Source of the DNA: Streptomyces yatensis
GTDB taxonomy: Bacteria; Actinomycetota; Actinomycetes; Streptomycetales; Streptomycetaceae
Direction of reading: 5' to 3'
Assembly (NCBI RefSeq): GCF_018069625.1
Contig: NZ_CP072941.1
Location: forward strand, 7,254,001-7,318,000
Length of the DNA stretch: 64,000 bases
Shown: one piece after another, positions 2,687-38,949 of the stretch
Numbering within the stretch: position 1 is the first letter of the stretch
How the letters are laid out: every line of letters starts with the position of its first letter
Translations under genes and position numbers: made by a program
The notes under the pieces: model-generated
Seen by the model: the letters and a program-made list of their open reading frames with translations, nothing else
Told to the model about the DNA's origin: nothing
The model's database searches: none

Positions 2687-2700
2687 AGTAACGGGTTCTA
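2687..2700. promoter_or_regulatory. KstR-like operator, cyp125-proximal (one mismatch)
   Basis: The 14-mer AGTAACGGGTTCTA fits TnnAACnnGTTnnA except for A instead of T at position 1. It lies about 58 bp upstream of the P450 start, a normal position for a repressor site. Weak alone, but supported by the better sites elsewhere in the window. Confidence 0.5.
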
Positions 2701-2815
2701 CAAGTCGCAAGAGAGAACGCGGCCATTGTTTCGGGGGATTGGTGCCGCTCCTGGTCCGCTCAACCCCTGCACAACCCTTGCGCCGCCGGGCCGGGCCTCA
2801 GCAGACTGAGCTGAA

Positions 2816-2837
2816 GAACTAGAACGCGTACTAGTTC
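2816..2837. promoter_or_regulatory. KstR-like operator within a 22-bp near-perfect palindrome, fadA5-proximal
   Basis: A 22-bp palindrome with arms GAACTAG/CTAGTTC around an ACGCGT core; only one symmetric pair is mismatched. It contains TAGAACGCGTACTA (2820-2833), which fits TnnAACnnGTTnnA with one mismatch (GTA for GTT). It is 54 bp upstream of the thiolase start, so a bound repressor would probably cover the promoter. Confidence 0.7.
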
Positions 2838-2890
2838 TGGCGCGGGCGCTGCCGGGAGCCCCGCGGATGCGATGAGAGGACGAGACAGCC

Positions 2891-35928: not shown

Positions 35929-36783
35929 ATGCCCATCGATGCCGCCAAGGCCATCTCGGCCGAACCCCGCAGCACCGCTCTCACCTGGGGGCACAAGGAC
36001 ATCCAGCTCTACCACCTGGGCATCGGCGCCGGAATCCCCGCCACCGACCCCGAAGAGCTCCGCTACACCCTGGAGAGCAGGCTCCATGTGCTCCCCAGCT
36101 TCGCGACCGTCGCGGGCGGCGGTATGGCCGTCGCCGGGGGCATGAGCGCCCCCGGGATCGACGTCGACCTCGCCGCCGTACTGCACGGCGGCCAGACCGT
36201 CGAACTGCACCGCCCGATCCCGGTCAGCGGGGAGGCCACCCAGACCTCGAAGGTCGCCGCGGTCTACGACAAGGGCAAGGCCGCCGTCATCGTGCTGCGC
36301 TCCGACGTCGCCGACGCGGACGGCCCGCTGTGGACCTGCGACACCCGGATCTTCGCCCGGGGCGAGGGCGGCTTCGGCGGCGAGCGCGGCCCCTCCGACC
36401 GTGTGGAGCCGCCCGCCCGGGAGCCGGACCACACCGTGGAGCGGGCCATCCGCGAGGACCAGGCGCTGCTCTACCGGCTCTCCGGGGACTGGAACCCGCT
36501 CCACGCCGATCCCGCGTTCGCCGAGGTCGCGGGGTTCGAGCGGCCCATCCTGCACGGGCTGTGCTCGTACGGGATGGTGCTCAAGGCGGTCGTGGACACG
36601 GTGCTGGACGGGGACGTCGCCCGGGTGCGCTCGTACACCACCCGCTTCGCCGGGGTGGTCTACCCGGGCGAGACCCTGCGCGTGCGGATGTGGCGGGACG
36701 AGGGGCGCGTCCATGTGACGGCGACCGCCGTCGAGCGGGACGACGCGCCGGTCCTCACCGACACCGTCGTCGACCACGTTTGA
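35929..36783 (+). CDS. MaoC-family enoyl-CoA hydratase, ChsH3/Hsd4B-like
   Basis: 284 residues from the ATG at 35929 (MPIDAAKAISAEP; AAGGAG is 12 bases upstream). It has the double hot-dog layout of hydratase 2. The N-terminal half reads LTWGHKDIQLYHLGIGAG, and the C-terminal active site is LSGDWNPLHADPAFAEVAGF (Asp and His of the MaoC motif) followed by RPILHGLCSYG. ARGEGGFGGERGPS is also shared. Each block is close to M. tuberculosis Rv3538 (ChsH3/Hsd4B), which hydrates a steroid side-chain enoyl-CoA. A perfect KstR site stands upstream. It is the first gene of an operon with an alcohol dehydrogenase and an SDR. Confidence 0.85.
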   Translation: MPIDAAKAISAEPRSTALTWGHKDIQLYHLGIGAGIPATDPEELRYTLESRLHVLPSFATVAGGGMAVAGGMSAPGIDVDLAAVLHGGQTVELHRPIPVSGEATQTSKVAAVYDKGKAAVIVLRSDVADADGPLWTCDTRIFARGEGGFGGERGPSDRVEPPAREPDHTVERAIREDQALLYRLSGDWNPLHADPAFAEVAGFERPILHGLCSYGMVLKAVVDTVLDGDVARVRSYTTRFAGVVYPGETLRVRMWRDEGRVHVTATAVERDDAPVLTDTVVDHV

Positions 36784-36850
36784 TCCGGCTCGAGCGGGCT
36801 CGGGCGGGCTCGGGCCAGCGTGTTCCCAGTGTGATCCCCAAGGAGGCGTC

Positions 36851-37936
36851 GTGCGCGCGGCCGTACTGCATGAGACGGGACAGGACAAGCTCGAAGTCCT
36901 CGACGACATCGAGGCGGTGGGTTTCGGCCCCGGGAAGGTCCGGCTGCGGCTGAGGGCCACCGGGCTGTGCCACTCCGACCTCTCCGCGATGGCCGGGGTG
37001 CTGCCGCAGCCCGCGCCGTTCATCCCCGGCCACGAGGGCGCGGGCGAGGTCCTCGATGTGGGCGACGGGGTGACCGGGCTGAGCGCCGGGGACCGGGTGC
37101 TGGTGTGCTGGCTGCCCGCCTGCGGCGACTGTCCGGCCTGTCAGCGCGGTCAGACCGAGCTGTGCCTGACCGGGTTCATGAACGCGGGAACCCCCAACTT
37201 CCGGCGCTCCGGCGGCAGTTCGCAGGATCTCTTCGGCATGTCCGGGACCGGCACCTTCGCCGAGGAGATCGTCCTCCCCGCGGCTTGCGCCGTGCCGATC
37301 CCCGACGACGTCCCGTACGACATCGCGGCCCTCATCGGCTGCGGAGTGACCACCGGGCTCGGGGCGGTCTTCAACACCGCCCGGGTGGAGGCCGGTTCGT
37401 CGGTCGCGGTCATCGGCTGCGGCGGGGTGGGCATCAGCGCCATCCAGGGGGCCAGGGCGTCGGGCGCCGCGCAGATCGTCGCCGTCGACCCGGTGGAGTC
37501 GCGGCGCGAGGCCGCGCTGCGCTTCGGGGCCACCGAGGCGGTGGCGCCGGACGGCCTCGACACCGCCAAGAACAGCGTCACGGCGGGCGAGGGCTTCGAC
37601 TACGTCTTCGAGGTCGTGGGCCGCTCCGCCACCGCCCGCCGGGCCTACGAGATCACGCGGCGCGGCGGCACGCTGTGCGTGGTCGGGGCCGGGGCGCTGG
37701 ACGACTTCCTGCAGTTCAACATGTTCGAGCTGTTCTTCGACGAGAAGCGGATCCTGCCCTCGCTCTACGGCGGCGGCGATGTGCTCCGCTCCTACCGGCG
37801 CACCATCGACCTGTGGCGGGCGGGCCGGATCGACCTCGAAGGGCTGATCACCCACCGGGTGCGGCTCGGCGAGATCAACGAGGCGATCGGCCAGATGCGG
37901 AGCGGGGAGGCACTGCGCACATGCATCGAGATCTGA
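36851..37936 (+). CDS. Zinc-dependent alcohol dehydrogenase (MDR family)
   Basis: 361 residues from a GTG with AAGGAGG upstream. The catalytic zinc site is seen as GLCHSDLSAM and PGHEGAGEVL, the structural-zinc loop as CGDCPACQRGQTELC, and the Rossmann loop as VAVIGCGGVGISAI. It belongs to the class III-like ADHs with actinobacterial relatives (Rv3086, Rv0162c). It follows the ChsH3-like hydratase by 67 bp and overlaps the SDR gene, so it is part of the KstR-controlled operon and may oxidise a side-chain alcohol; this is inferred. Confidence 0.85.
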   Translation: MRAAVLHETGQDKLEVLDDIEAVGFGPGKVRLRLRATGLCHSDLSAMAGVLPQPAPFIPGHEGAGEVLDVGDGVTGLSAGDRVLVCWLPACGDCPACQRGQTELCLTGFMNAGTPNFRRSGGSSQDLFGMSGTGTFAEEIVLPAACAVPIPDDVPYDIAALIGCGVTTGLGAVFNTARVEAGSSVAVIGCGGVGISAIQGARASGAAQIVAVDPVESRREAALRFGATEAVAPDGLDTAKNSVTAGEGFDYVFEVVGRSATARRAYEITRRGGTLCVVGAGALDDFLQFNMFELFFDEKRILPSLYGGGDVLRSYRRTIDLWRAGRIDLEGLITHRVRLGEINEAIGQMRSGEALRTCIEI

Positions 37937-38949
37937 CGGGCCCCCTGGCGGGGAGTCCACTGACCGGGAACGCGCCGGCCGGGAGCCCGCTGGCCGGGAG
38001 CCCATTGAATGGGAGCCCGCTGGCCGGGAAGACCGCGATCGTCACCGGCGCCGGGCGCGGCCTCGGCCGCGCCGAGGCCCTGGAACTGGCCCGGCTGGGC
38101 GCGAACGTCGTCGTCAACGACTACGGACAGGGCGGACGCGACGGCTCGGGCGAGGCATCGGCCGGCCCCGCCGAGCAGGTGGCCGAGGAGATCCGCGCGG
38201 CCGGCGGCCGGGCCACCGCCCATGCGGGCGATGTGGGCGACTTCGCGCAGGCGGGCGAGCTGGTCCAGCTCGCGGTCGACACCTACGGCGCACTGGACAT
38301 CCTGGTCAACAACGCGGGCATCCTGCGCGACCGGATGGTCTTCTCGATGAGTGAGAACGAGTGGGACTCGGTGATCCGGGTCCATCTCAAGGGCCACTTC
38401 AACACCATCCGCTTCGCCGCCGCGCACTGGCGCGAGCGGTCCAAGGCGGCGGAGGGCGGCCCGGTCCACGGCCGGATCATCAACACCTCCTCGGAGGCGT
38501 TCCTCGCCGGTTCGCCGGGCCAGCCGAACTACGCGGCGGCGAAGGGCGGCATCGTCGGGCTGACCACCTCCACGGCGGTGGCGCTCGCCAAGTACGGGGT
38601 GACGGCCAACGTCATCTGCCCGCGCGCCCGCACCCGGATGACCGAGGACGTCTTCGCGGACTTCGAGCTCCCGGAGGACGGCCGGCTCGACGCCCTCGCC
38701 CCCGAACACGCGGCCCCGCTGGTCGGCTATCTCGCCTCACCGGCCGCGGCGAAGGTCAGCGGCCAGGTGTTCGTGGTGCACGGCGGCATGGTGGCGATCC
38801 TGGAGCGGCCGAAGGTGGCGACCAAGCTGGACGCCAAGGGGGACGCCTTCGGCTTCGAGGAACTGGACGCGGTGCTGACGCCGTACTTCGCGGAGCGGGG
38901 CGGGGAGAGCTTCGCGGCGGTGGAGGTGCTGGGCCTCAAGCGGGGGTGA
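37921..38949 (+). CDS. SDR-family 3-hydroxyacyl-CoA dehydrogenase (Hsd4A-like)
   Basis: 342 residues. The start ATG lies inside the last codons of the preceding gene. The first 35 residues are a Gly-Ser-Pro-Leu repeat tract (GSPLAGSPLNGSPLAG). The SDR core then begins: KTAIVTGAGRGLGRAEALELA, VVNDYGQGGRDGSG, NNAGILRDRMVFSM, and Tyr/Lys in NYAAAKGGIVGL. The VVNDxGxxxDG loop is characteristic of peroxisomal 17beta-HSD4 and of M. tuberculosis Hsd4A (Rv3502c), which oxidises the 3-hydroxyacyl-CoA after hydration. With the MaoC hydratase two genes upstream it would complete one oxidation round that FadA5 then cleaves. The repeat leader is unusual. Confidence 0.85.
   Translation: MHRDLTGPLAGSPLTGNAPAGSPLAGSPLNGSPLAGKTAIVTGAGRGLGRAEALELARLGANVVVNDYGQGGRDGSGEASAGPAEQVAEEIRAAGGRATAHAGDVGDFAQAGELVQLAVDTYGALDILVNNAGILRDRMVFSMSENEWDSVIRVHLKGHFNTIRFAAAHWRERSKAAEGGPVHGRIINTSSEAFLAGSPGQPNYAAAKGGIVGLTTSTAVALAKYGVTANVICPRARTRMTEDVFADFELPEDGRLDALAPEHAAPLVGYLASPAAAKVSGQVFVVHGGMVAILERPKVATKLDAKGDAFGFEELDAVLTPYFAERGGESFAAVEVLGLKRG

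Follow-up and report, generated by a model that had tools for sequence, protein, structure and literature searches.

We report that a TetR-family protein encoded in a 64-kb stretch of the Streptomyces yatensis genome (the window; positions 7254001-7318000 of a genome that forms one 10.36-Mb contig) is probably a KstR-type repressor of dispersed sterol side-chain units plus the manT operon. As judged from sequence, this explanation is supported by the genes, the sites, their conservation and the co-inheritance of the catabolic genes. Binding, repression and ligand would be as in mycobacterial KstR, from which we infer them by analogy; the substrate and the reason for one shared regulator are likewise our interpretation. 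The ligand of mycobacterial KstR is a cholesterol-derived CoA thioester.

In our model, the TetR protein would bind 14-bp palindromes (core TAGAACnnGTTCTA) in promoters and repress, and a long-chain or sterol-derived acyl-CoA would release it from these operators. At least seven units over 3.7 Mb of this genome would be controlled: the divergent cyp125 and fadA5 genes; a metallo-beta-lactamase (MBL) gene divergent from an aldehyde dehydrogenase (ALDH)-ferredoxin pair; kstR divergent from manT-methyltransferase-mmpH; maoC-adh-sdr; one fadE gene at 5.195 Mb and another at 8.911 Mb; and, at 8.933 Mb, fadD19 divergent from echA19-OB/ChsH2-ltp4-ltp3. Every unit except manT would serve to shorten the sterol side chain, with no ring opening. 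The manT operon would make methylmannose polysaccharide, a proposed acyl-CoA-sequestering polymer. We infer a link between side-chain shortening and polysaccharide synthesis.

The regulator was compared with solved structures and searched for in a sample of 101 Streptomyces genomes, our own included:

24015-24629, minus strand: KstR-type TetR regulator (PDB KstR chains, 131 bits; next TetR, 43 bits; found in 96 of 101 Streptomyces)

Its best scores were 137.8 bits with 3bjb and 131-132 bits with Mycobacterium tuberculosis KstR, and the next solved relative, Mce3R, reached 42.9 bits. The original prediction had called the DNA-binding half nearly identical to mycobacterial KstR. That was too strong: 36 of 58 residues of the DNA-binding part are shared with the M. 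tuberculosis protein, including 23 of 30 in the recognition segment, and identity in the remainder is 40 of 125.

Six predicted operators are present in the window, outside called genes and in promoter gaps (the sites carry no strand):

2687-2700: operator AGTAACGGGTTCTA, one mismatch, cyp125 side (one-mismatch counterpart in 29 of 30 fetched loci)
2816-2837 (14-bp core 2820-2833): 22-bp operator GAACTAGAACGCGTACTAGTTC, fadA5 side (core with no more than one mismatch in all 30 fetched loci)
21091-21104: operator TGGAACTGGTATCA, one mismatch, between the MBL and ALDH genes (counterpart in 5 of 5 ALDH promoters examined)
24720-24733: exact operator TGGAACTCGTTCTA on the kstR side (7 of 96 loci carry a second exact site between kstR and manT)
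24993-25006: exact operator TGAAACTTGTTCTA on the manT side (95 of the 96 kstR loci carry an exact site)
35789-35802: exact, perfect palindrome TAGAACGCGTTCTA, upstream of maoC (counterpart in 5 of 5 maoC promoters, one of them mismatched)

The pattern TnnAACnnGTTnnA has four exact matches in the window, where dinucleotide shuffles predict 0.03, and 12 matches with at most one mismatch, where they predict 1.94. None of 100 shuffles equalled either count, which bears out the predicted enrichment beyond chance.

The genes flanking these sites, the kstR/manT region aside, are as follows:

1397-2629, minus strand: cyp125-like P450 (best PDB chains CYP125; 5dqn, E 1.2e-155; start from the gene caller)
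2891-4060, plus strand: fadA5-like steroid 3-ketoacyl-CoA thiolase (NF005889, 692.7 bits; cut-off 515)
19997-21049, minus strand: MBL-fold hydrolase of the Strvi_7410 family, divergent from ALDH (NF053820, 671.9 bits; cut-off 525)
21318-22784, plus strand: aldehyde dehydrogenase (no single equivalog cut-off reached)
22784-23017, plus strand: small ferredoxin (PF13370/PF13459)
35929-36783, plus strand: MaoC hydratase (PF01575, PF22622)
36851-37936, plus strand: zinc alcohol dehydrogenase
38005-38949, plus strand: short-chain dehydrogenase, MFE-2/Hsd4A-like (PF00106; PDB 7lg9, 2et6)

The assignments made at the outset from the letters alone held for the CYP125-like protein (best chains CYP125, E 1e-155) and for the FadA5-like thiolase, which clears its cut-off; the MaoC hydratase, the MFE-2-like dehydrogenase and the small ferredoxin were borne out at the level of family. 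Gene starts are approximate, because our gene caller is a simple codon-usage script. In four relatives the ALDH operator is 48-64 bp away from the called start; in the window the distance is 227 bp. The leader from site 21091 to the called ALDH start (21105-21320) is about 165 bp longer than in these relatives, GC-rich and repetitive.

Operators of this type were also found far outside the window. The whole genome holds 28 exact matches, compared with 7 for the reversed pattern. Nine exact matches carry the full TAGAAC/GTTCTA half-site, and seven of these are intergenic: the three exact window sites listed above and 5195445, 7234424, 8911528 and 8933088. The further operators, 1.6-2.1 Mb off, lie before fadD19/echA19-ltp4-ltp3 and before two fadE genes; acyl-CoA dehydrogenase genes start 60 bp past 5195445 and 82 bp past 8911528. 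Site 8933088 falls between an acyl-CoA synthetase gene (PRK07798), which by comparison we take to be fadD19, and a divergent echA19-type gene group. This group encodes an EchA19-like hydratase, a ChsH2-type OB protein, a PRK07937 protein and a PRK08313 protein, the last two presumably Ltp4 and Ltp3. The hydratase passed PRK07799 and narrowly missed the EchA19 equivalog (377.1 of 400 bits). CYP125, FadA5, FadD19, EchA19, ChsH2-type and Ltp-type genes were hence all found in this genome, with an operator that is exact at kstR and at 8933088 (fadD19/echA19) and has one mismatch at cyp125/fadA5.

An exact intergenic site, TAGAACTTGTTTCA at 7234424-7234437, lies 20 kb before the window, upstream of a PF02458 transferase gene. 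Among the ten matches listed for the relative G096, it has no counterpart.

We then consider conservation across the Streptomyces sample, where conservation and co-occurrence counts come from related genomes and are uncorrected for kinship. FadA5 exceeds the steroid thiolase cut-off in 79 of the 101 genomes. We fetched 30 fadA5 loci, the best-scoring of the 79 genomes (our own included) and not a random draw. Upstream of fadA5, each of the 30 carries a divergently oriented gene (334-421 codons) and, on the fadA5 side, a one-mismatch site; the other site is present in 29. In G054, G089, G025 and G083 the divergent gene is a CYP125 orthologue of 79-82% identity. With the fetched loci aligned on the site, mean column identity is 0.985 across the 22 bp of GAACTAGAACGCGTACTAGTTC, compared with 0.661 and 0.476 in the flanks. 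Six relatives (G054, G089, G025, G083, G096 and G036) have operators before orthologues, among the units fetched. With our own genome included, operators are borne by the promoters of ALDH (5/5), maoC (5/5), echA19 (3/3), the fadE gene at 8911 kb (5/5) and that at 5195 kb (2/2). The genes are also inherited together: Ltp4 occurs in 75 genomes, each of which also has FadA5, while FadA5 occurs alone in four, Ltp4 alone in none and neither in 22. The two loci are 1.7 Mb apart in this genome. These data uphold the original prediction of a dispersed KstR-type side-chain regulon, with conserved operators, operators outside the window and FadA5/Ltp4 co-inheritance.

Four of these relatives (G054, G089, G025 and G083) have an additional operator before a fused dehydrogenase gene, presumably FadE34-like; a PRK08256 protein gene adjoins it in G025.

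Several observations weigh against this interpretation. A search of this genome for the fused FadE34-like dehydrogenase, which 40 of the 101 genomes have, gave none at E 1e-150 among ten scored candidates. The regulator misses the 280-bit cut-off of NF033703, the NCBIfam KstR equivalog, with 196 bits (194.9 as a long open reading frame). Because the sampled genomes are related, the counts are not independent. Sites are not confined to promoters, as had been claimed: the fourth exact match in the window (37715-37728) is inside the alcohol dehydrogenase gene, and five one-mismatch matches that the claim omitted (3326, 36490, 36770, 57391 and 61794; five of the eight of that class) overlap coding sequence, making 6 of 12 window matches coding. 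By the gene caller, 19 of the 28 exact genome matches are coding and nine intergenic; 7048993 is counted among the nine, although a cruder filter put it in an open reading frame. Three intergenic sites (7234424, 3639491 and 7048993) have no known sterol or polysaccharide neighbour, although annotation covered the surroundings of 7234424 only. Finally, KshA_C in this genome is weak (64 bits, E 8.3e-17) and yet above Pfam's cut-off.

Ring degradation bears on what the regulon would act on. Neither TIGR03213 (HsaC-like) at 1e-40 nor MlaD/Mce (PF02470) at 1e-5 gave a match in this genome. The ring module and the Mce importer thus look absent, as judged from searches for KshA, HsaC-like and MlaD sequences; KstD and cholesterol oxidase were not searched. 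Were they absent, the shortened steroid would be left or exported. Perhaps, then, the regulon is real and its substrate is not a sterol, KstR sensing other methyl-branched or isoprenoid acyl chains that these enzymes degrade? The apparent lack of ring markers and importer here is consistent with this idea, as is the lack of a strong KshA in 71 of the 79 FadA5-bearing Streptomyces and the concern of the core target with acyl-CoA in general. However, the FadA5 of each of the 79 genomes exceeds the steroid thiolase cut-off, the P450 has CYP125 as its nearest match, and gene pairs and sites match the mycobacterial sterol regulon (PMC1995591). We therefore think a non-sterol substrate rather unlikely, though it is the strongest of the alternatives, and retain sterol side chains as the probable substrate.

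One target differs from the rest. The operon divergent from kstR, with a further methyltransferase gene nearby, reads as follows:

25060-26397, plus strand: manT-like mannosyltransferase (7QSG, E 2.6e-138)
26496-27239, plus strand: S-adenosylmethionine-dependent methyltransferase, candidate 3-O-methyltransferase by position (no specific match)
27236-28336, plus strand: mmpH-like methylmannose polysaccharide hydrolase (7QSJ, E 2.5e-115)
32229-32855, minus strand: 6g7d-like methyltransferase (E 2.9e-74), about 4 kb from the operon

We take 6g7d to be MeT1; upstream of its relative here there is no site with two or fewer mismatches. An earlier label for 27236-28336, 'GH15-like', was replaced by MmpH after the 7QSJ match. 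The structures 7QSG and 7QSJ are those of ManT and MmpH, two enzymes of methylmannose polysaccharide synthesis (PMC9883506). Sequestration of fatty acyl-CoA is the role proposed for these polysaccharides, of which S. griseus produces an acetylated form (PMC9883506). Site 24993, which the original prediction had placed in a sterol side-chain regulon, belongs to this operon.

The arrangement is nearly universal in the genus. manT is divergent from kstR in all 96 Streptomyces with a kstR match at 1e-25, and the gap between them holds an exact site in 95 and a one-mismatch site in the remaining one (G023). All 18 genomes with KstR but without FadA5 retain the manT operator. Five genomes gave no kstR match. 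In three of them (G010, G037 and G044) the manT promoter is readable and the locus has no site with one or fewer mismatches; in the other two, manT is cut at a contig end (G071) or has no match (G050, 82% complete). On this sequence evidence, the ManT-methyltransferase-MmpH operon is the most conserved predicted KstR-type target in Streptomyces: the sterol genes are gained or lost mostly together, and the manT target is kept by nearly all sampled genomes. In one FadA5-less genome (G047, locus L116), a MaoC relative of 68% identity adjoins the retained kstR/manT operator region and lacks a site.

In the class as a whole, ManT was found in 108 of 246 genomes and 36 of 103 genera. Outside Streptomyces there were 86 manT matches, from which we read 40 promoters and 8 further loci. 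Among the 40, 8 of the 20 from family f17 (judged to be Streptosporangiaceae with Nocardiopsaceae) have an exact site no more than 700 bp from manT; under a Markov control, the fraction of 950-bp promoters with a site is 0.0005. The 8 further loci added one exact site, in f17 locus L222, with a kstR-like gene. We then surveyed 80 Streptosporangiaceae and Nocardiopsaceae loci of named records, two of which had too little upstream sequence to be counted. An exact site is present within 450 bp upstream of the manT match in 59 of 61 Streptosporangiaceae loci, one of which has a KstR-like gene; in Nocardiopsaceae, 1 of 17 manT loci has an exact site and 14 have a KstR-like gene. The remaining exact sites in the 80 loci number 7 in 454,572 bp. 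Among the best 120 of 970 matches, KstR-type proteins are seen in Nonomuraea, Planotetraspora, Sphaerisporangium and others.

Might the conserved site before manT serve only kstR autoregulation, with the polysaccharide operon a bystander? The site does sit in a divergent promoter, and mycobacterial KstR represses its own gene (PMC1995591). However, its distance to the manT start is 66-69 bp in 87 of 95 loci, while that to kstR ranges from 93 to 421 bp, and in Streptosporangiaceae it is kept upstream of manT almost without a KstR-like gene in the locus, though it is nearer another gene there. These data make the bystander explanation improbable. Control of the manT operon leads to a broader suggestion, which we hold tentatively and at somewhat less than even odds: that in Streptomyces, and probably Streptosporangiaceae, KstR may at root be an acyl-CoA-responsive regulator of the acyl-CoA-binding methylmannose polysaccharide, with a sterol side-chain set that lacks ring breakdown as an accessory and mycobacterial cholesterol catabolism as one derived use. 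Two further results count against our main explanation. Exact sites are missing from all manT promoters read in two other families (0/14 in f4 and 0/6 in f18), and the Streptosporangiaceae site lies a median of 82 bp from the divergent gene vs 171 bp from manT. In the one locus scanned (L327), that divergent gene is GDP-mannose dehydratase-like (402.9 of 415 bits). The divergent gene of Streptosporangiaceae had also been considered as the window's F420 gene, which was rejected (0 of 61 loci at 1e-20).

Nocardiopsaceae loci (e.g., L274:1119) have a recurrent one-mismatch site, TAGAATATGTTCTA, beside the kstR-like gene. The L274 site adjoins an MBL gene (335.5 of 525 bits for the Strvi_7410 family), and a member of this family shares promoter 21091 in the window.

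Markers of a complete, mycobacterial-type sterol pathway that includes ring degradation occur in some Streptomyces. KshA_C is strong (E 1e-87 or better, 296-314 bits) in eight of 101 genomes and weaker in 20 others, this one among them, and all eight have FadA5. TIGR03213 matches in all eight at 308-354 bits, under its cut-off, and lies within about 8 kb of KshA in seven. At 1e-40 it matches in 23 genomes (15 without strong KshA), none over the cut-off. An HsaC-like match alone is no marker of ring degraders, because G079, without strong KshA, scores 306.8 bits vs 308.4 for the lowest of the eight. One of the eight, G083, has a KstD/HsaA/HsaC/HsaD-type cluster, in which HsaA and HsaD exceed their cut-offs and the HsaC- and KstD-like genes fall under theirs; since this cluster was recovered, real ring clusters are found by such searches. 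This cluster and the strong KshA of the eight lend the complete pathway some plausibility, but in this genome KshA_C scores 64 bits vs 296-314 in the eight, with no HsaC-like or MlaD match. On the searches for these three we reject a complete pathway here, KstD not having been searched, and regard it as very improbable. KstR sites are missing from the ring loci of the eight genomes, both from 16 short loci (8 KshA, 8 HsaC-like) and from the 20-kb G083 cluster. In G070 (contig C1, 74134-82437), an HsaC-like gene, KshA, a second FadA5 and a second FadE34-like match lie within about 8 kb, apart from the usual FadA5; this looks like a separately acquired steroid cluster.

The coding share of window and genome matches might suggest that six chance matches were selected from a large number. 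Given the shuffle controls and conservation across the genus, mismatched bases included, this is scarcely credible, and we reject it on those grounds.

The closest known system is the KstR regulon of M. tuberculosis and M. smegmatis (Rv3574/MSMEG_6042; Kendall et al. 2007, PMC1995591). There, Table 3 gives M. tuberculosis sites at the divergent pairs Rv3545c/Rv3546 and Rv3515c/Rv3516 and at Rv3520c/Rv3521. The operator core, sites in divergent cyp125/fadA5 and fadD19/echA19 and a similar recognition segment are shared with Streptomyces. In contrast, the Streptomyces regulon is dispersed over 3.7 Mb without detected ring or Mce markers, its regulator scores under the equivalog threshold, and its predicted targets include the manT operon; the M. 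smegmatis methylmannose genes, MSMEG_6481-6484, have no site in Table 3, where the nearest tag is MSMEG_6475. The same paper suggests that S. coelicolor SCO2319 (32% identity, without synteny) may be an orthologue of KstR and, in the text consulted, gives no sites or targets for it; SCO2319 is probably the counterpart of the window TetR. In the nontuberculous mycobacterial methylmannose cluster (PMC9883506), ManT- and MmpH-like genes and a methyltransferase stand side by side with a 6g7d-like one nearby, as in Streptomyces. In Streptomyces the operon and a KstR-type gene diverge from a gap that carries a KstR-type operator; in the PMC9883506 text, 'KstR' and 'regulat' occur 0 times.

A comparative study of 2012 traced KstR and its sites back to the ancestor of Mycobacterium and Rhodococcus. 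Of >50 Streptomyces, Bergstrand et al. detected the cholesterol pathway in 1, which agrees with the few ring-bearing genomes here; the wide side-chain set is not reported in the part of that work consulted. CYP125 in Streptomyces has been reported already (PMC8197338). Our literature search, which left subscription journals largely uncovered so that prior reports are possible, returned no title or abstract start describing a KstR-type sterol side-chain regulon in Streptomyces and no paper with both 'methylmannose' and 'KstR'.

A regulator best known from mycobacterial cholesterol breakdown is thus represented by a KstR-type gene in 96 of 101 Streptomyces, with the steroid thiolase in 79. A regulator that the polysaccharide shares with lipid catabolism would make the proposed methylmannose role in acyl-CoA handling testable. 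A side-chain pathway without ring breakdown, if true, would interest makers of steroid intermediates.

Near the polysaccharide operon and without a site, window positions 28963-29973 (minus strand) encode an F420-dependent oxidoreductase (Rv3520c family, 432.2 bits; cut-off 335).

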